Assembly (NCBI GenBank): GCA_903840165.1
Contig: CAIMEY010000055.1
Location: forward strand, 62,001 to 126,000
DNA from: an uncultured Myxococcales bacterium
GTDB taxonomy: Bacteria > Myxococcota_A > UBA9042
Direction: 5' to 3'
Length of the DNA stretch: 64,000 bases
Notes under the pieces: model-generated
Seen by the model: only the letters and a program-made list of their open reading frames with translations
Databases searched by the model: none
Told to the model about the DNA's origin: nothing
Position numbers and translations under genes: made by a program
Shown: one piece after another, positions 2,882 to 31,221 of the stretch
Position numbering within the stretch: the first letter of the stretch is position 1
How the letters are laid out: every line of letters starts with the position of its first letter

Positions 2882-4867
2882 ATGCAGGGTAAACTATCAA
2901 CTCTAAAGACAGTTTTGTCAGTTGTTGCGGCTGCAGCCTCTCTTGGTGCTGGATCGGCTTGGGCCTGCGGTGCTTGCGTCAATCCGCCGGGGGGCGCGTC
3001 CTACGTCAAGCAGAAGGCAGAACGCGTCTTGTTTGGCTATGATCCCGTAACTAAAGACAGTTTGGTGTGGGTCGAAGTGCAGTACAACGGCCCGCCGGGA
3101 GCCTTTGGCTGGGTGATTCCCATGCCCAAAGTGCCCAAAGTCGGCGTGGGGTCAACGTATTTGTTCGACCGCCTCGATCAAGCCGTCGCGCCGCGCATGG
3201 AGACGACCGTGACGGCCGACACGGAGAACTGCCGTTCGTATTCCTCTTCCAGTTCAGGGTCTTTGGGCTGTGGTGCCTCGGCCAATGACTCGTCTGCCAA
3301 AGCCACTGGCGCATACAACTATGAGGCCGCAGATGCCTCGTCCGACGCCGGTGGCGGTCACGTCACGGTCTTGGAACAAGCGCAAGTTGGCCCGTATGTC
3401 TATGACATCATTCAGAGTGACAAGGCCGACGCCATGTTGGCCTGGCTCAATGACAACGGCTTTGCCACGCCGCCCGCGGCCTTGCCGATCTTGCAATCGC
3501 ATGTGACCAAAGGCGATGTCTTTGTTGCATTTAAGCTGCAGGCCGGTGAGGGCCTCGATGCCATTCGGCCGGTGACTTTCCGCATGCAGGACGCCGACCC
3601 ATGCGTGCCCCTGCGCTTGACCTCGGTGGCGGCTGAAGACGACATGACCGTGGTGGTCTATTTGGCTGGTCCTGGGCGGGCAATTCCCAAGAATCAACTG
3701 CATGTACAAGTCAATCCCCTGCGCTTGACCTGGGAAAGTGGTGGCGACAACTATCCGCAGCTGCTGGCAGCGGCGATGGATGAGGCGCAAGGCCGTGCAT
3801 TTGCAACCGAGTTTGCTGGGCCGACCAAGCTCCTGAGCGTAGCGCCAGTCTTGGCCCAAACCGCAAAAGGTGAAAACATCATTTCTTCTGTGCAGTTCGC
3901 GCGGCCCGTGGCGGAGAACTCGGCCTACGGCAGTGGTGCCTTGATCGACGCCACCCACCTGGACGCGTCGCCCTTTGCCAACGTCGCGACCCTAGGCGAT
4001 TTAGCCACGGCCCTGCACAAAGCTGATCTGCCCTTGACCGATGATTTGGCTGCGAATTTGACCGAGGATACCACGGCCGCCACCGTGGGCCTGGATCGCC
4101 TTGTCGGGTGCCCGAACTTGTGGGCGCAAATGCAGGCCACAGGCCAGGTTCCGTGCAAACTCGACGCCAAAGCTGCGGTCGATGGTGTGGGTATTGCTAA
4201 GGATACCAAGGTGTTTGCTGAGTCCATTGCTCAGGCTTGGCAAATGGTCCAGGGAGCCAAGACCCTAACGCGTCTGCAAATGCGTATTTCACCAGCGGAA
4301 ATGACGCGCGATCCCCTGTTTGCCTTCCATTCCACCTTGCCCGATGTTGCCTCGGTGCACACGGCAACTATGCATAATGTTTGCAGTCAGGGTGACTACA
4401 ATGCCGATGCGACGCGCCTGACCCTGACCGACCTGGACCGCAGCTACATCATCACCAATGGCAACGCTGGTGGCGCCTTCACCATGGGCACGCCGACCGT
4501 GAAGACCGCGCAAGATAAGCGTTTTGCCACTCTGCCGGCCGCGTACGTGGTGCAGGTCCTTGACGAGGTGCAATCGGCAGCGCCAGCGGAGGTGGCGCCT
4601 GAGCAAATTGCCCTGATTGATCAAGCAATTGCTTCGGCCAAGCCGGGGCAGCCGACCCTACCAAACGGGGTTTCCTTGCAAAAGGCCGCGGTGCGCGTGG
4701 TCCTGCCTGATAGCGATAAGCCCCTTAATTTTCAAAAGATTACCAGTAACGGCGCCGCAGACCCTGGCGGTTGTCGCAGTGGCCACCGCGCAGCCCTGCC
4801 GCCTGCCCTGGCCCTGCTGGCGCTGACGGCGACGCTTGTGCTCTGGCGCCGGCGGGAGATGCGATGA
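2882..4867 (+). CDS. Exported DUF2330 protein with MYXO-CTERM-like tail
   Basis: The 661-residue protein has a cleavable signal peptide (residues 1-28, ending GSAWA), then the DUF2330 core beginning CGACVNPPGG and continuing GAFGWVIPMPKVPKV. The function of DUF2330 is unknown. A Ser-rich cysteine-containing loop follows near residue 120. The C-terminus has GGC, a hydrophobic helix (about LPPALALLALTATLVL) and RRREMR. This cysteine-helix-arginine layout resembles the MYXO-CTERM sorting signal of Myxococcota, which suggests surface anchoring. The start at 2882 has GGAGG five bases upstream; the longer reading frame (to 2819) has no ribosome site and would bury the signal peptide. Its stop overlaps the next gene by four bases. 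Confidence 0.8.
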   Translation: MQGKLSTLKTVLSVVAAAASLGAGSAWACGACVNPPGGASYVKQKAERVLFGYDPVTKDSLVWVEVQYNGPPGAFGWVIPMPKVPKVGVGSTYLFDRLDQAVAPRMETTVTADTENCRSYSSSSSGSLGCGASANDSSAKATGAYNYEAADASSDAGGGHVTVLEQAQVGPYVYDIIQSDKADAMLAWLNDNGFATPPAALPILQSHVTKGDVFVAFKLQAGEGLDAIRPVTFRMQDADPCVPLRLTSVAAEDDMTVVVYLAGPGRAIPKNQLHVQVNPLRLTWESGGDNYPQLLAAAMDEAQGRAFATEFAGPTKLLSVAPVLAQTAKGENIISSVQFARPVAENSAYGSGALIDATHLDASPFANVATLGDLATALHKADLPLTDDLAANLTEDTTAATVGLDRLVGCPNLWAQMQATGQVPCKLDAKAAVDGVGIAKDTKVFAESIAQAWQMVQGAKTLTRLQMRISPAEMTRDPLFAFHSTLPDVASVHTATMHNVCSQGDYNADATRLTLTDLDRSYIITNGNAGGAFTMGTPTVKTAQDKRFATLPAAYVVQVLDEVQSAAPAEVAPEQIALIDQAIASAKPGQPTLPNGVSLQKAAVRVVLPDSDKPLNFQKITSNGAADPGGCRSGHRAALPPALALLALTATLVLWRRREMR

Positions 4868-23248: not shown

Positions 23249-26200
23249 CTAGCGAAAGAGACCTTCAATCAAACCGTTGGCCTGCACGGCCTTGCTGCGC
23301 CAAATGGAAAGGATGCGCCCATCGGCAAAGCCTGTGATGCGCGGTTGGTCTTTGTCGCCGGTCGCATTGGCGCTGGTTAGGACCGCCTCATCGGTGGAAA
23401 AGCCACTGTTTGCACTGAGATCTCGCTCGGCGACTTGGTAGTTGCTGCTGCCGACCGCCGCGCCCTGGGACCGCCAAATCAGCAGGGCCCCGCTGGACAA
23501 TGGGCCGAGCCACGGCTGATCTTGACTGCCTGTGACAAAGGTGTTGGCCGTGACCATGGGGCCCAAGGCCTGTAAGAGTGCATCCAGATGGCGCATTTTG
23601 ACCCCGTTGCCGTTGCCGTCGCCGCTGGTAGCTTGCCATGCGGCTAAGAACTCGCCGCTGCTGGCGCTCAAGGTCACGGTATCGGCGTTGGCTGCCGGAT
23701 CACTGACCACAACGACGCCACTGGCAAAGGTCCCTGTGGAGGTCAAAGCCCGTGCGCGGATTCGGGATTTTGCATTGGCGCCACCAAAGGCATGAGTCCA
23801 AGCGATGACGATGTCCCCGGTGCTGCGAACGGCTACGGCGGGCGTCGTCTGGTTGCCGGTGACCGGGTCGTCGGCATTGGCCGGGTCGTCGTTGACGATA
23901 ATCGGCGTGCCCAGGGCTGCCCCCGTGGCGTCGAACAACGCGGCTCCGATGCCCTTGTCGCCGGAACCTTCAATGGCATCGCTGGTCCACGCGACGACAA
24001 AGCCGCCACTCCAGGAAGCCAAGGCAGGCTCCGTCTGCGCGCCCGAGTTGTCTCCGGAATTACCAATCAATACAGGTCCTTTGGTGGCTCCGGCGCCGTC
24101 AAACAGCTGCACCGAGATGTTCTGATCCATGCCGGAAGTGACCCAGGCAATGGCAAAGCCAGTGCCGACGGCGGTTGCGGCGAGACGACTGCCGCTGCCA
24201 CTGCTGAGCAATGAATTGCTTGCGATCTTCGCCGATGCGGCCTTGGGCTTGCCGTCGACGCCAAACATGCGCAGGCGTACGTCGGCGGCGTTGCTGCTGT
24301 CGACCAGCCAGGCGACGGCAAAGGAACCGTCTGTTAAAGCAACGACTTGCGGGGACGCGGCGGAGGCCGTGTCGCTCAGCGTTTGCAGTCCATCGATGGC
24401 GCAGGCACCTTGACCGGTGCAGTGGGCGTCGGCGTTGCAACTGCTGCCGGCCAAGACCGATTTACCGTCGACGGCGCACTTACCGATCTTGGTCTTATCA
24501 CTGGGATCACAGGACAATTGGTTCGGTACGCACACGCCACAGCTGCCCGCGTAGCACACCGGCGTTAGGGCCCCGCACGCCGCGGGCGCGCCCCAGGCAC
24601 CCTTGCTGCAACTCGCGAATTTCGCGGCTTCTGTGCATGCAGTGCTTCCATCGCTGGCCAGGGTCAACTTGCCGTCGGCGCCGATGAGCGGACATTGTCC
24701 CGCCTTTTCAACGCAGACCTTGGCCCCACCGCCGAGGGTGCTGGCGCAATTGCCGCTTGCGCATTGGGTATTGCTGGTGCACGCGGCACCGGTGCTGCAG
24801 ACGCCGATGTCGGTCTTGCCGTCGCAATCATTGTCAACGCCATCACAGCTTTGCTCAATCGCTTCATAGCCCTTGACGGCGACCAGGTTGCACATCCACT
24901 TGCCGCCAACGCAGCCACTCGGCACGCCAGCCGCGCACACGCCTTGGCTCGGGCACTTGGCGGCAGCCGGGTCGCTTAGCGATTCGTCGGTCAGGCCATC
25001 GCAGTCGTTGTCCAGGCCATCGCATGTCTTTTCAACGGCTTCAAAGGCGGTCACAGCGCTGGTATCGCAGGTCCATTTGCCGCCGCCGCAGGTCGCCTTG
25101 GCCTTGCCGGCGCACACACCAACGGTGCAACCGATCTTGCTGGCGTCGAGGCCCTCGGGTTCGTCGGTCTTGCCATCGCAATTGTTGTCGAGGCCATCGC
25201 ACAAGGTCTCCGTGACCGCTTGGTACATCGCTACATGGCTGTAATCACAAACGCCTTGTCCTGTCTTGCACACGGCCGAAGTGCCATAGGCGCACACGCC
25301 AGCGGTCAGGCAGTTGCTGGTCGAAGGCGAGGCGCTCTCATCGGTCTGGCCGTCGCAGTCATTGTCTTTGTTGTCGCAGGTTTGTTCAAAGGCTTCATAG
25401 CCTTGCCCGGCCAGACTGGCCCAGTCGCAGACGAACAAGCCACCCTGGCACAAAACGCTGCCATTGGCGCAGATGCCCTTGTCGCCACAAGGATTTTTCG
25501 CCGGCGGTGCCAGTTTGTTGTCCGTACCGCCGTCGCAGTCGTTGTCGAGGCCGTCGCAGGCCGACTCGGTCGCCTGATAGCCAGGAATGCTATTGTAATT
25601 GCAAACCAAACTTCCCTGACTGCAGACCTTGACCACCTGGTTTTTGAAGGCGTCGCACACGCCCAGGCTCAGGCAACCGTTGGTTTCGGTGCCGACCAAG
25701 GGCAAGCCGGTGCCGGCCAAGTTGTCGGTCTTGCCGTCACAGTCGTTGTCCAAGGTATCGCATGTAGTTTCAAAGGCTTGATAGCCAGATAGGGCGCTGT
25801 ACAGGCAGATAGCTTGGCCCCCCTGGCAGGCTTGGACCACGCCCGCACAGACGCCTGCCGACTGGCATTTGAGGCTGCTGACCTGCAAGCCCGTGTCGAT
25901 CTCGCCGTCACAATCGTTGTCCTTGCCGTCGCACTTGGTTTCTTTGTCTTCATAGTCAGGCGCTTGCGCATATCCGCAGTCCCACTGACCTTGAGCCGTG
26001 CACAGGGGGGCCGCTAGGGCCGCGCACACGCCCATTCGCTTGCAATCACTGGGTTTGGCTACGACCTCTTCATCGGTTTGGCCGTCGCAGTCGTTGTCCT
26101 TGCCGTCGCAGCGGTCCTCGACCGCTTGGTAATCCGGTAAGCTGCTGAAATCGCAAAGCCATTTGCCACCTAGGCATAGTCCCTTGGGTGAGCTGAGGGC

Positions 26201-26689
26201 GCCGCAGACGCCGACGCTGGGACAGACCGGTTTGGCGCTGGCGGCGAGTTCGTCCACGGCCCCGTTGCAGTTGTTGTCTAGGCCGTCGCAGGTTGTATCG
26301 CTGGCGGCGTACGATAGGGGAGCAACCGCCAATTTCCCTTTAGCATCCTTGGGATGCAGGGCGGCGGTGCCGTGCCAGACCCAGCTGCTACAACCGGCAA
26401 ACTGGCCGGTGGACGGGTTGATCGTGCAGGTGCCTGTCCAGTAATCCTTGGCGTCGACCGAGCAAACCCCGTGCCGTGTGTTGCAAGGATCTGGATTGCA
26501 AGGATTCTGGCCGATTTGGCTCACTTGAACTTGGCAGCCGAGCAGCAGCAGCAGGGCCGAGAAGACCGAGAGTAGCGCAGATCCAAACAATAATCTGCAA
26601 TTATTGAGAAATTCAAACAATTGCCCGCGCGTGTCGCAGGGTCCGTGGCCGGAGCAACGGTCTTTGGGCGGCGTGGGCGCGGCGGTCAT
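23249..26689 (-). CDS. MopE-like lipoprotein with nine CDGxDNDCDG repeats and a C-terminal beta-propeller-like region
   Basis: This 1,146-residue surface lipoprotein has a long N-region, a hydrophobic stretch and a lipobox (LLLLLGC, Cys52). After a CNPDPCNTRHGVC module come nine copies of a MopE-type metal-binding motif (CDGLDNNCNGAVDE, CDGKDNDCDGQTDE and variants). Each is spaced by about 45-60 residues containing GVC and a GKWxCD-type segment. The last 400 residues lack these repeats and show blade-like repeats (VVALTDGSFAVAWL, LASWSGGFVVAWTSD, VRSTGDIVIAWTH, LSASSGEFLAAWQ), suggesting a beta-propeller. The DxDxDG-like loops suggest Ca2+ binding. The start at 26689 has AGGAG upstream. Confidence 0.85.
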   Translation of the reverse strand: MTAAPTPPKDRCSGHGPCDTRGQLFEFLNNCRLLFGSALLSVFSALLLLLGCQVQVSQIGQNPCNPDPCNTRHGVCSVDAKDYWTGTCTINPSTGQFAGCSSWVWHGTAALHPKDAKGKLAVAPLSYAASDTTCDGLDNNCNGAVDELAASAKPVCPSVGVCGALSSPKGLCLGGKWLCDFSSLPDYQAVEDRCDGKDNDCDGQTDEEVVAKPSDCKRMGVCAALAAPLCTAQGQWDCGYAQAPDYEDKETKCDGKDNDCDGEIDTGLQVSSLKCQSAGVCAGVVQACQGGQAICLYSALSGYQAFETTCDTLDNDCDGKTDNLAGTGLPLVGTETNGCLSLGVCDAFKNQVVKVCSQGSLVCNYNSIPGYQATESACDGLDNDCDGGTDNKLAPPAKNPCGDKGICANGSVLCQGGLFVCDWASLAGQGYEAFEQTCDNKDNDCDGQTDESASPSTSNCLTAGVCAYGTSAVCKTGQGVCDYSHVAMYQAVTETLCDGLDNNCDGKTDEPEGLDASKIGCTVGVCAGKAKATCGGGKWTCDTSAVTAFEAVEKTCDGLDNDCDGLTDESLSDPAAAKCPSQGVCAAGVPSGCVGGKWMCNLVAVKGYEAIEQSCDGVDNDCDGKTDIGVCSTGAACTSNTQCASGNCASTLGGGAKVCVEKAGQCPLIGADGKLTLASDGSTACTEAAKFASCSKGAWGAPAACGALTPVCYAGSCGVCVPNQLSCDPSDKTKIGKCAVDGKSVLAGSSCNADAHCTGQGACAIDGLQTLSDTASAASPQVVALTDGSFAVAWLVDSSNAADVRLRMFGVDGKPKAASAKIASNSLLSSGSGSRLAATAVGTGFAIAWVTSGMDQNISVQLFDGAGATKGPVLIGNSGDNSGAQTEPALASWSGGFVVAWTSDAIEGSGDKGIGAALFDATGAALGTPIIVNDDPANADDPVTGNQTTPAVAVRSTGDIVIAWTHAFGGANAKSRIRARALTSTGTFASGVVVVSDPAANADTVTLSASSGEFLAAWQATSGDGNGNGVKMRHLDALLQALGPMVTANTFVTGSQDQPWLGPLSSGALLIWRSQGAAVGSSNYQVAERDLSANSGFSTDEAVLTSANATGDKDQPRITGFADGRILSIWRSKAVQANGLIEGLFR

Positions 26690-26724
26690 GGCGACTCCTG
26701 ACAAGGGCAAATACGGCATCGGCG

Positions 26725-27981
26725 CTAGAAAATCCATGCTGCAGAAAAGCCCGTGGGGGCAACGGAAAACTGCGGAACGGCACTGATTCGCTGCCACAGG
26801 GTCGGCGGGGCTGCGTCACCGGTGGTCGCCGGCGGGTGAGCAGATGGGCCGAGGATCCACCAAGCGGTGCCGGCGGCAATCAGCAAACCACCGCCGACAA
26901 AGCAGTAATTCGCCAATTTGCTGTTGTCCTGGGCACTGCTGATCAAGGTGGTTTGGTCGCTGAGGAAAGACAAAGTACCCGGAGACAACGTCTTGACATC
27001 CTGAGCATTTTGCCGGGTCTGCAGGCCGAACCAGCCTCCCGCCAGCAAGGCCGCGGCACCCAAGGCGCTGACGGTCACGGGCCCGTAGGCATGAAGAAAG
27101 GATTTGCCGGACCGCGGGGGGGCCTGAGCGATGAGGCCCGTTTCAGTATCTTGCGGTTTATCCTCAGGAATGACCAGCTTGGGCGGCACGATCGGCACCT
27201 TGTCGGGCTCCGGTTTGATGTCCGGCAGAGGCACCTTCTCCGGGACCTTGTTCGGAACCGGGTCTGCCTTGGGCTCCGGTGTGATCAAAACGTCGTGTTT
27301 TTCTTGGATTTTTCCAGGCTTGGCGTTGGGCGTGCCGACCAGCATGGGCCCGCTTTCCTCTTCGGTCAGGGCAATAGCCACGGTATTGCCCTCGGGACCA
27401 CCGACCTGGAAGGTGCGCAATTCACTGTTGTATCCCTTGGCGCTGCTTTCGATGTTCCAGGTGCCAGGCGCCAAGAACACATCGCCCGACCCCAGCAGCA
27501 CCCGTTGCGGCCCTTCTAGCTTGTTTCGGCCAGCGCGGTTGAGTTCGACGCGGGCACCGTAAGGCTGAACCAGAATCGCAACTCTATGTAATCCTGGTGG
27601 AACTAGCGCTGAAAGCCTCTTTAAGTTATCCTCCAGCAGCTTGCGTTGGGCTTCGCTCATGTCGAAGGTCAGCGCCAACTCTGCGGCATCACGGGCTTCT
27701 GCAAATAGCTTCGCTTTTTCAACGGACTGGCCATAGCCAATCAGCAGCGCTGGACTTTGGTGCAGGTGGTAGGCGGCGCGGTAGTACTCGGCGGCCAATT
27801 CGTCTTGGCCTGCGCGGGTTTCAATCCTGGCCAGCGCGGCCATACGCAGGGACATGGCGTAGCGCTCAGGCGCGGTGAATTGCCATTCAATGCCACGTCT
27901 TGGGGTGAGCGTCACCTGTTCGGTGGGACCACCGCAAGCGGCCAGGGTAGCAATCAAGAATAGTAGAAAAATACGCGACAT
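26725..27981 (-). CDS. Lipoprotein with PEGA-like domain, Pro-rich linker and two TM helices
   Basis: The 418-residue product begins with a compact lipoprotein signal (MSRIFLLFLIATLAAC). A helical region (residues 35-130) with EYYRAAYHLHQSP repeats looks TPR-like. A PEGA-like beta domain follows (VAILVQPYGARVELNRAG ... LAPGTWNIESSAKGYNSE). After a linker rich in Pro, Glu, Lys and Val come two hydrophobic helices near residues 300-325 and 365-385. This layout is common in myxobacterial envelope proteins of unknown role. The start at 27981 agrees with the promoter at 28057-28085. The MopE-like gene follows after 35 bases, so the two form an operon. Confidence 0.75.
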   Translation of the reverse strand: MSRIFLLFLIATLAACGGPTEQVTLTPRRGIEWQFTAPERYAMSLRMAALARIETRAGQDELAAEYYRAAYHLHQSPALLIGYGQSVEKAKLFAEARDAAELALTFDMSEAQRKLLEDNLKRLSALVPPGLHRVAILVQPYGARVELNRAGRNKLEGPQRVLLGSGDVFLAPGTWNIESSAKGYNSELRTFQVGGPEGNTVAIALTEEESGPMLVGTPNAKPGKIQEKHDVLITPEPKADPVPNKVPEKVPLPDIKPEPDKVPIVPPKLVIPEDKPQDTETGLIAQAPPRSGKSFLHAYGPVTVSALGAAALLAGGWFGLQTRQNAQDVKTLSPGTLSFLSDQTTLISSAQDNSKLANYCFVGGGLLIAAGTAWWILGPSAHPPATTGDAAPPTLWQRISAVPQFSVAPTGFSAAWIF

Positions 27982-28056
27982 TGCACGGCTGTAGCGGCGT
28001 AGCAAGTGGATGATGGGCGAGGCTGGTGGCACGGCAAGTCGGTCCATCTCAATTGC

Positions 28057-28085: not shown

Positions 28086-28171
28086 CGAAATCACTGCACG
28101 CGGATCGGCACCTTGTGCTGCATCTGCGCGGGGTCACTGTTCCTCGCCCGTTGCAGGGCACGGGCGGTCGC

Positions 28172-28440
28172 GGCCAAACCACTAGCACCTCAAACCGGAA
28201 GTTCCTTGCGGGTTGGAGGTACAGAGTTTGCTTCTAGTTTCAAGGGGCCCGCGATCTCCACTTGGCCGTGCCAGCCTTGGCACGGCTCATGTGCTGCGCC
28301 CGCTGTGGAGTCATCTCCCCGCCCGCGCACGGGGGCTCACCCGTGCGTTCGGCCGGTCGCCGGCTGCAAAGTCTACAACGCCGAGTCCTTTGCGGTAACC
28401 CGGAAAGGACTTAGGGGGTTACGTGGACTAGCGCTTGGCC
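28172..28440. ncRNA. Candidate structured non-coding RNA of about 270 nt
   Basis: The stretch can close on itself: 28172-28177 (GGCCAA) pairs with 28435-28440 (TTGGCC), and CTAG at 28182-28185 with CTAG at 28428-28431. Inside are several hairpins. 28187-28196/28211-28220 has 9 of 10 pairs. 28256-28261/28305-28310 (6 bp) encloses a perfect 8-bp stem 28265-28272/28279-28286. 28326-28333/28340-28347 is perfect over 8 bp with a six-base loop, 28352-28356/28360-28364 over 5 bp, and 28384-28391/28404-28411 over 8 bp plus an inner 3-bp stem. A further hairpin, 28145-28150/28161-28166, lies outside. It matches no RNase P, tmRNA, SRP or 6S signature that I can see. The strand is not settled by the pairing. 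Confidence 0.5.
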
Positions 28441-28446
28441 CACCCA

Positions 28447-28716
28447 CTATTGCAGGGCGGCCTTCATCCGGCCGAGCCAAGGAGCCGCCTCTGGCAACAA
28501 GCCGAATTCACGCCCCGCCGCTTTAAAAGACGCACTGGCCGTCTGCGGATCGAGCCCGTGGGCAAGGAAGATGCGCGTTTGCAATTCACTCGGCAAGGCA
28601 ATGAGTTGGCCTACATCACCGGCGCTCTTGGCAGAAGCCATCGCCGCCTTGAAGGTGAGGTCCTCAAAGCCTTCGACGATTTGTTCAAGGATCGACATGA
28701 ACACTGCTTTTTCCAT
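28447..28716 (-). CDS. Small helical protein, probable partner of the AAA ATPase
   Basis: The 89-residue product is predicted all-helical (MSILEQIVEGFEDLTFKAAM at residues 7-26, then LIALPSELQTRIFLAHGLD and SFKAAGREFGLLPEA). It has no signal peptide or known motif. It starts 30 bases after the AAA ATPase stop with AAGGA six bases upstream of its ATG, so it is probably cotranscribed and may be an adaptor or regulator of the ATPase. I do not recognise a family. Confidence 0.6.
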   Translation of the reverse strand: MEKAVFMSILEQIVEGFEDLTFKAAMASAKSAGDVGQLIALPSELQTRIFLAHGLDPQTASASFKAAGREFGLLPEAAPWLGRMKAALQ

Positions 28717-28746: not shown

Positions 28747-31122
28747 CTATTCGTCCGCGTACTGACGCACAACCCGGCCCGCGTCTTTGTATTCCCGCTC
28801 GCCAGCCTTGGCCAGTAGTGCATAATTGATAGGGATTTGCTGCTCAGCTGCCCAGACCGCGGCGCGAATCACAGCATTTTGGATCTGGCCGCCCGTCAGT
28901 TCGTAGTCGATGGCCAAATCAGCAAAGCGCAATTCCGTTTCGCGTGGCGCGGTTTCCGGAATCATGACACGCCACAGGCGTTCGCGTTCGGTCTTGTCGG
29001 GTGCCGGGAAACTCGGTTTGAAGCGAATGCGGCGCATGAACGCCTGGTCAATGCTTTCTGGGTGGTTGGAGGTAAGTATCACCAAACCATCAAAATCTTC
29101 AAGGCGTTGCAGCAGGTAGTTGACTTCCAAGTTGGCGTACCGGTCCACAGAGGATTGCACATCGGTGCGCTTGGCAAAGAGGGAATCGGCTTCATCAAAC
29201 AGCAGGGCGATGCCGGAATCCTGAGCAGCATCAAATAGTTTGCTTAGACGTTCCTCCGTCTCGCCGATGTACTTGGACACCACGCTGGCAAGGTCTACGC
29301 GGAAGAGCTCCAGCCCCAGATCGCGTGCAACCAGGCCTGCGCAAAGCGTTTTTCCTGTGCCCGACGGGCCCGAAAACAGCGAAGTGAGTGCGCGGTTGTA
29401 GCCCATTGTGCGACCGTAGCCTTGTTCGTCAAGCACGAAGCTGGCATGGCGGCCAAACTGGACCATTTCTTCAAGGATATCTTTGGTTTCTGTAGGAAGT
29501 ACCGTTGTTTCCCAGCGGCCGCGTACGTTAATGCGCGTGGCCAAGCCGGCGAGGTGAGAACTGGCGACGTCGCGGCAGCTCTTCTCCAAATCGGTCAGGT
29601 GAATGCGACCTGAACCTGAAATATTGCGCTGCCTTGCACTGGCAGCAGCGAGGTTGACCGCCAAATCAATCTCGTCCACGCCGAACTTGAAGATCGCCGC
29701 CGAGCGCACAGCATCTTCCATTTCCTCAGGCGCCATCTTGGCTTGCAGTCGTTCTTGCCACAGGGTCGTGCGATCGTCGACGCTGGGAGCCGTCGTCGGC
29801 AGCTCGATGCAGCCGATCTCGCGCAGCAGGTGTAAGTGCGCACGCGGGGACAGTTTGTGCTCCTCGACGCGGGAACTGGCTGGCGCATGGAAGAAAAGTG
29901 TCGTCGTTTCCGTCTTCAGGAGTTGGACCAGTGCCGCTAGGCGCTCCACCCCATGATCGCCGGCGTCCAATACCTCCGCATGGGCAAAGAACAATCCGGC
30001 CCGCATCAGGCGCGCGCGGCCCAGGACATGGCCCAGCCGTGCCACGGGTTCTTGCACCAGCAAGTCTAGGCGCACCTCCAGCAGACCTTCGCCCATCATT
30101 TGCAGGGCGTCGCGGGCGATGTGCAGGGCCCCGGCGCGTTCAGGACCTAGGACAAGAAAGCGTCTCCGTTGACGAAATCCCCTGGACAAAGCCTGTTGCA
30201 GCGCTGGCGCCGTGGCGGCCGGCGAGGGATCATCGTCGCGCGGTTGTAGCCACATGACCCCAGGCAGGTCGTCTAACTGCACAGAAAGACCGAGCAAATA
30301 GCCGCAGACAAAGGCAGGGGCCCTCAGGGCTTGGCGTCCGTCATCGCCACGGCTCAGCACCAAGCCATAGCGCCGCAACACTTGGTTATCCCTCAGACTT
30401 GCAAGGACTTTGCCGCCGCGAATGGCAAAAGGGTCAACGCCGTGACTCAGCAAATCTTCTGGCCAAAAACTTCGGGTGGAATCGCGCCATAAGGCCCGGT
30501 AAAGCCAAAGAAATTCTGGAACAAGCTCTGGGGCTAGCAAAAGCCACAGGACGTCGCATTCCAGGTCTGAGAGGCCAAAAATGACACGCAGTTCATCAAA
30601 GCGCTGTCCGCCCGTCGTGGTCGGGGCTAAATCGTCATAGGCCGTGCAGAGTTGTGACTCCATGCGCTGGACAAAGGCCATGCGCTCCGGGTCCAGGGCC
30701 TCGCCGCGCAGGCAGCGCAAACAGGTCGAGTCTAGGGTTTGCAATGTCGCAGAAGGCAGCGGATTGGAAGAGGAATCGTCGGTCCCCTTGTCCCAAGGCC
30801 TCAGCACGGCCAGGTACCGCTGCATCATGGCGCGCACGCGTTCGATGTACGGCGCGAATTCCAGGGCCGCCCCTTGCAGCCAGGGCTGAGCGGCCTGGGC
30901 ATCAACCTGCGTTTGGCTTGCATCTGCGCCTAGTTCAGCGCGGAGCAACTGACGCAGCAGGTCGACCTGGCCATCGCTCAAGTCATCGGTGCTGAGGTCG
31001 GGATCGATGCGCGCCCGGTCGAGCAGGGTCTTGGCCTTAGCCCTTGAAACCCCTGGCAAATAGGTAAGCGCAGTCTCGACGGGACGGTGCGGAGGTAAGC
31101 CTGTCAATCCACTACGTGCCAT
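28747..31122 (-). CDS. AAA+ ATPase of the contractile-injection-system (Afp15-like) type
   Basis: The 791-residue protein ends in a canonical AAA module: Walker A SGPSGTGKTLCAGLVARDLG, the SKYIGETEERLSKLFDAA segment, Walker B IALLFDEADSLF, sensor ILTSNHPESID, and the arginine finger in QAFMRRIRFKPSF. The first 520 residues are a helical N-region and a degenerate ATPase-like domain without a Walker A motif (around FLVLGPERAGALHIARD). This two-part plan is typical of ATPases in extracellular contractile injection systems, but also of stand-alone ATP-binding proteins. No sheath, tube or baseplate genes are in the window. The start at 31122 is chosen over an ATG 16 codons upstream; neither has a strong ribosome site. 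It is divergent from the kinase gene by 99 bases. Confidence 0.82.
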   Translation of the reverse strand: MARSGLTGLPPHRPVETALTYLPGVSRAKAKTLLDRARIDPDLSTDDLSDGQVDLLRQLLRAELGADASQTQVDAQAAQPWLQGAALEFAPYIERVRAMMQRYLAVLRPWDKGTDDSSSNPLPSATLQTLDSTCLRCLRGEALDPERMAFVQRMESQLCTAYDDLAPTTTGGQRFDELRVIFGLSDLECDVLWLLLAPELVPEFLWLYRALWRDSTRSFWPEDLLSHGVDPFAIRGGKVLASLRDNQVLRRYGLVLSRGDDGRQALRAPAFVCGYLLGLSVQLDDLPGVMWLQPRDDDPSPAATAPALQQALSRGFRQRRRFLVLGPERAGALHIARDALQMMGEGLLEVRLDLLVQEPVARLGHVLGRARLMRAGLFFAHAEVLDAGDHGVERLAALVQLLKTETTTLFFHAPASSRVEEHKLSPRAHLHLLREIGCIELPTTAPSVDDRTTLWQERLQAKMAPEEMEDAVRSAAIFKFGVDEIDLAVNLAAASARQRNISGSGRIHLTDLEKSCRDVASSHLAGLATRINVRGRWETTVLPTETKDILEEMVQFGRHASFVLDEQGYGRTMGYNRALTSLFSGPSGTGKTLCAGLVARDLGLELFRVDLASVVSKYIGETEERLSKLFDAAQDSGIALLFDEADSLFAKRTDVQSSVDRYANLEVNYLLQRLEDFDGLVILTSNHPESIDQAFMRRIRFKPSFPAPDKTERERLWRVMIPETAPRETELRFADLAIDYELTGGQIQNAVIRAAVWAAEQQIPINYALLAKAGEREYKDAGRVVRQYADE

Positions 31123-31221
31123 GGGCCCCAAGGTACCGTGCGTCGCTCGGCGTGGCAATCGCATACCCACCGGGCCTTTGGCCTGCTACACTGTGGCGCC
31201 CAGGGGAAAGCGTACAAGACG

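Follow-up and report, generated by a model that had tools for sequence, protein, structure and literature searches.

What is the strongly folding sequence at positions 28172-28440 of the window, a 64,000-nucleotide stretch of the genome of an uncultured Myxococcales bacterium? In a preliminary description, it was taken for a large structured RNA. The locus is bordered on one side by a gene of unknown family (26725-28047, minus strand) and on the other by a small gene (28447-28716, minus strand) that is followed by an AAA ATPase gene (28747-31170, minus strand). Elsewhere in the window, at 23249-26797 on the minus strand, an ORF of 1182 aa carries repeated MopE-type metal-binding motifs (CDGxDNDCDG). 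The helices that had been described do exist. The stretch 28140-28445 folded at -146.9 kcal/mol on the plus strand (z -3.24) and at -142.2 kcal/mol on the minus strand (z -2.43), on both strands better than all of 100 dinucleotide shuffles. Structure beyond chance was thus upheld, and the main terminal double hairpin also showed strong compensatory change across genera (see below).

A known RNA family could be ruled out, as a search of Rfam with the region gave no family above the gathering threshold and the permissive matches had E values of 3.6 or higher. A protein-coding frame, which had been named as an alternative, was rejected, the 166-aa ORF that spans the region being without a Pfam match. 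Promoter-like and terminator-like sites were sought at the window copy and none was found; a terminator or promoter role of this copy was discarded.

A DNA search of the bacterium's own assembly (5.73 Mb in 123 contigs, approximately 93% complete) revealed dozens of copies, which were 77-88% identical to the region among the 40 candidates scored. For the census, this search was widened by module queries and two motif patterns, and the resulting loci were scanned with three module profiles, yielding 88 module A, 46 module B and 75 module C matches in 88 clusters. The motif pattern for module A matched 88 times, versus 2 times for the reversed control. A search with the end pattern added at least 12 further sites, all remnants, beyond the 88 loci. 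The repeat, approximately 250 bases long and protein-free, is therefore present at about 90 places in this genome, a number that is approximate because some clusters at contig edges may be two halves of one copy. The single-locus RNA gene reading is replaced by these results: the feature is one copy of a mobile repeat.

The sharp CTAG ends common to dozens of copies set the true unit at 28182-28431. The window copy is identical to the consensus of the genome in 227 of 253 aligned columns, and its parts are as follows.

28182-28431, no strand assigned: whole element copy A-B-C, 250 bp from CTAG to CTAG (sharp ends common to copies; module profiles).
28182-28185, no strand assigned: left CTAG, the presumed insertion target, with TA or CTAG duplicated (conserved at ends; shared at tandem joints; in frame with the TAG stops of neighbours at other copies).
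28182-28252, no strand assigned: module A, the left terminal repeat, with a hairpin at 28185-28222 and the conserved tail GCTTCTAGTTTCA (module profiles).
28254-28314, no strand assigned: module B, a tandemly variable hairpin unit, inner stem 28265-28272 with 28279-28286 (module profiles).
28315-28431, no strand assigned: module C, small GC hairpins and the right terminal double hairpin (module profiles; covariance model).
28371-28428, minus strand: right terminal double hairpin, outer stem 28371-28376 with 28423-28428 and inner stem 28384-28391 with 28404-28411 (pairing kept across genera).
28428-28431, no strand assigned: right CTAG, presumed insertion target as for the left CTAG (same grounds).

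In the consensus, the hairpin of module A has 14 bp including one mismatch and is followed by the conserved tail. The two ends form imperfect terminal inverted repeats of approximately 33 nt, 25 of them identical (counted by eye on the consensus), each with a hairpin. With its short dispersed copies, terminal inverted repeats and lack of a protein gene, the family has the characteristics of a non-autonomous element. Of the closing stem proposed earlier, the CTAG/CTAG part corresponds to the element ends, whereas GGCCAA (28172-28177) and TTGGCC (28435-28440) lie outside the element, in flanking DNA. Inverted flank matches of 6 bp or longer occur in about 4% of shuffled pairs, and the flanks of 33 copies showed a slight excess of inverted matches that was equalled by 4 of 300 shuffles.

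The copies are modular. The number of B modules varies from 0 to at least 3 per copy; many copies lack B, most of the others have one and some have two or three; several contigs terminate inside B arrays. The variants seen were A-C, A-B-C, A-B-B-C and 63-bp end-to-end forms, in which two element ends are joined. One-ended remnants are common, and solo remnants of either end occur. At one locus (L142:1976-2198, contig C100 of the own genome), an element remnant is followed by the apparent start of an IS3-type transposase gene at the contig end. No match to the element was found in the phage and plasmid collections searched, and a phage or plasmid origin was rejected; viral contigs bearing the 16-mer GCAGGGGTGAGCGCGC look unrelated.

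A blastn search with the region in 35 relatives gave nothing convincing. Versions in relatives were revealed only by a covariance model of module C, run against 52 genomes of the class; plain blastn missed them. Strong or repeated matches were present in genomes G001 (4), G014 (59), G017 (2), G021 (6) and G010 (64, weaker), all from the same bacterial family as the host but from other genera. Weak matches occurred elsewhere, one of them in a genome from a different family of the class (G022, E 0.003); these may be chance, and no convincing match was obtained in the other families among the 52 genomes. The elements of the relatives run from CTAG through a double hairpin with a GGGTT loop, a hairpin, the unpaired GCAGGGGTGAGCGCGC and more GC hairpins to a terminal hairpin that ends in CTAG; those of G010 are without the middle part. 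In G014, tandem copies occur, with a single CTAG common to both neighbours at each joint. At five G014 loci (L170, L171, L172, L173 and L177), a palindromic module, CTAGTAGGCGAAACC...GGTTTCGCCTACTAG, was joined to elements via a shared CTAG, sometimes in tandem.

A pattern scan of approximately 85,000 species pointed to one further place, in the Myxococcales MAG ACE_MYX12 (JAHBWH010000046.1, L112). The inverted-repeat element seen there (L112:5144-5320, approximately 170 bp) resembles module A in a 20-nt core, CCCGAAGTTCCTTSCGGGTT, near one end; it differs in its outer ends (GTGCCCCCAACCCGAAGTTC, inverted) and its interior, and was seen at this one place. The shared core may be partly a chance match.

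The placement of the copies is informative about the role of CTAG. In a first gene-calling run, with a simple codon-usage caller, 87 of the 88 copies were intergenic, and only one of the copies lay between divergent genes. In a second run no copy was inside a gene, and 30 of the 88 had the stop codon of a neighbour at a terminal CTAG. Outside the elements, the same loci contained 572 CTAG sites (379 coding, 166 intergenic and 27 at stops), background counts that are rough since the caller finds 72% coding in the loci. In a frame test independent of gene calls, where coding sequence met a terminal CTAG, TAG was in frame 13 times and in other frames 0 times at the strict threshold, 19 versus 0 at middle thresholds and 25:0:1 at the loosest. 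The prs gene (ribose-phosphate pyrophosphokinase) beside an A-B-B-B copy stops at its natural C-terminus, and for acetyl-CoA synthetase, next to an A remnant, the alignment reaches to within 4 residues of the end of the protein. Among 27 loci of relatives, 12 had a stop at an element end and none had the element inside a gene. The neighbours of the copies are many unrelated genes. Insertion at pre-existing CTAG stops, with CTAG restored, is the simplest account. Selection against in-gene insertions explains the intergenic bias, and special targeting is not needed.

We therefore consider it highly probable that the sequence represents one copy of a non-autonomous mobile DNA element whose ends carry hairpins, whose insertion target is CTAG and which is moved in trans. 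A transposase encoded elsewhere would recognise the hairpin-bearing ends, and the element would insert at CTAG with duplication of TA or CTAG. Since the duplication would restore the stop codon, an insertion at a stop would be harmless and would survive. Inserted copies would then decay, and B units would multiply through slippage or unequal exchange. Both forms of the target have precedents: a title cited in PMC2170065 describes an IS630-associated transposon that prefers TA in CTAG, and IS5 mostly duplicates CTAG (PMC5493358).

An autonomous partner with matching ends was not found in the own genome, a fragmented, approximately 93% complete assembly in which reverse transcriptase, Y1_Tnp and IS630 types were searched; this result and the frequent one-ended remnants count against the reading just given. 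The IS630 copy with readable ends in this incomplete assembly has the ends GTTACTACYCCGGC, unlike those of the element, and two other copies are degenerate; the own IS630 was rejected as parent on account of its ends. IS630-type transposase sequences with these ends (L133 and L134; contigs C86 and C35) are cut by contig ends and are probably multicopy.

Some of the same features would fit a family of the REPIN/RAYT type, in which the two terminal hairpins would form an inverted REP pair, a Y1 (HUH) transposase would mobilise it as single-stranded DNA, and the CTAG-like head would be part of the element, not a duplicated target. Inverted hairpin ends, solo ends and end-to-end doublets are all present, and GTAG-REPs, too, often supply TAG stops to neighbouring ORFs (PMC3733652). 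The genome contains five Y1_Tnp (RAYT-like) genes (L128, L129, L130, L131 and L132, on contigs C23, C29, C2, C110 and C60, respectively), pairwise 47-54% identical, three of which have an upstream stretch like GACCGTTTTTCGGATTTCGAGCGATCAC in common. On C110, the Y1 gene is framed by inverted flanks (L131:2027-2054 and 3704-3731, TAGTACC...CAACCC) that weakly resemble the element ends. However, REPs are said to flank their RAYT genes in every case (PMC2817692), yet A or C ends were found beside none of the five Y1_Tnp genes, and no Y1 gene was present within the fetched element loci. The single CTAG at tandem joints also fits a restored target better than a head belonging to the element. We regard this possibility as rather unlikely.

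How the hairpins have been kept bears on the remaining readings. In 12 hand-chosen sequences from six genomes, in which the loop and the ends served to locate the stems, the outer stem of the C end was paired in 79 of 84 cells (94%) and 4 of its 7 pairs had changed on both sides; for the inner stem the corresponding figures were 98 of 120 cells (82%) and 8 of 10 pairs. When the partner was slid, counted stem by stem, pairing was 27-57% for the outer stem and 28-42% for the inner stem. Within the genome the pairing of module C was mildly above that of shuffles. A home-made R-scape-like test of the own-genome copies gave no covarying pair above a phylogenetic null that may be too strict, and RNAalifold on these copies produced noisy structures with almost no covariation. 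Private substitutions numbered 83 over 110 paired sites versus 110 over 140 unpaired sites (0.75 versus 0.79 per site); as they are equal in stems and loops, resident copies decay neutrally. So pairing is maintained in the spreading lineages, not in each resident copy. Mismatches on the plus strand were more often A.C (138) than G.T (63), which hints that the minus strand is the folding strand, many of these counts being inherited together.

Movement could also proceed via a folded single strand, of DNA or RNA. An enzyme would then read the two-tier terminal hairpins, which stay paired across genera although their stem letters turn over, CTAG stops would be safe landing sites, and the system would be distinct from classical MITEs and from RAYT/REPINs. 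We put this forward as a doubtful, speculative variant.

It appears very improbable that selection maintains the individual copies as functional structured RNAs or as regulatory elements of adjacent genes. Strong folding, covariation across genera and the unpaired GCAGGGGTGAGCGCGC common to several genera could all be cited in its favour, as could the excess of A.C over G.T mismatches on the plus strand (equivalent to G.T on the minus strand), which suggests one folding strand. The claim of a functional RNA gene at this locus is nevertheless not supported: the sequence is one of 88 dispersed copies, its stems are mutated privately as often as its loops, no covariation within the genome exceeds the phylogenetic null, the neighbouring genes are many and unrelated, and neither an Rfam match nor a promoter-like site was found for the window copy. 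Covariation of the terminal hairpins between genera goes together with free drift of the copies inside the genome; a covarying structure can thus answer to the requirements of a mobile element without implying an RNA function for the host. A host-RNA reading is unlikely.

A retro-element, the folded RNA being reverse-transcribed into DNA with one-sided truncation, was suggested by the RNA-like folds and the many A-only copies, and msDNA-like repeats have been reported in Nannocystis exedens according to the title of Lampson and Rice (1997), cited in PMC6868368, but this idea was dropped as largely refuted and scarcely credible, since an equal search of both ends gave one-ended remnants of both and the sole RVT_1 reverse transcriptase gene of the genome (L111, contig C18), which by eye looks like the group II intron type, has no element beside it.

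The preferred reading, a non-autonomous mobile DNA element, leaves the question of its nearest kin. We have classed the element as a new family among the small non-autonomous mobile repeats, without naming a superfamily; the nearest kinds are MITEs, REPINs and the pneumococcal BOX. Like BOX (boxA-boxB(n)-boxC), it has two end modules around variable tandem internal hairpin units, here 0 to at least 3 B units, and it is likewise intergenic, strongly folding and of high copy number; BOX elements cluster and insert into one another (PMC3049150). It differs from BOX in sequence and host, in its larger modules and in its hairpin-bearing inverted ends at CTAG, so that the likeness is one of architecture alone and common descent is not claimed. 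With REP/REPIN it shares inverted palindromic ends (a conserved head plus palindrome), solo units, inverted doublets and termini that give TAG stops (PMC3733652); it differs in its longer hairpins, in CTAGTAC instead of GTAG at most ends, in its internal modules and in the lack of a Y1 gene flanked by its ends. MITEs of IS630/Tc1 or IS5 type resemble it in being short, protein-free and of high copy number, with terminal inverted repeats, and in its probable target, TA in CTAG or CTAG. From IS630 MITEs it is set apart by the different IS630 ends in its own genome (GTTACTACYCCGGC), and the target duplication of the element is deduced from its copies.

What could temptingly have been called a new ncRNA is a mobile repeat family. 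It occurs in several genera of a single bacterial family and has no counterpart in Rfam or in the phage and plasmid collections that were searched. Unless recognised as repeats, its copies could be annotated repeatedly as orphan structured RNAs. The family also brings a BOX-like modular architecture outside the streptococci, and offers an example of mobile repeats that come to lie at TAG stops in frame with a neighbouring gene.
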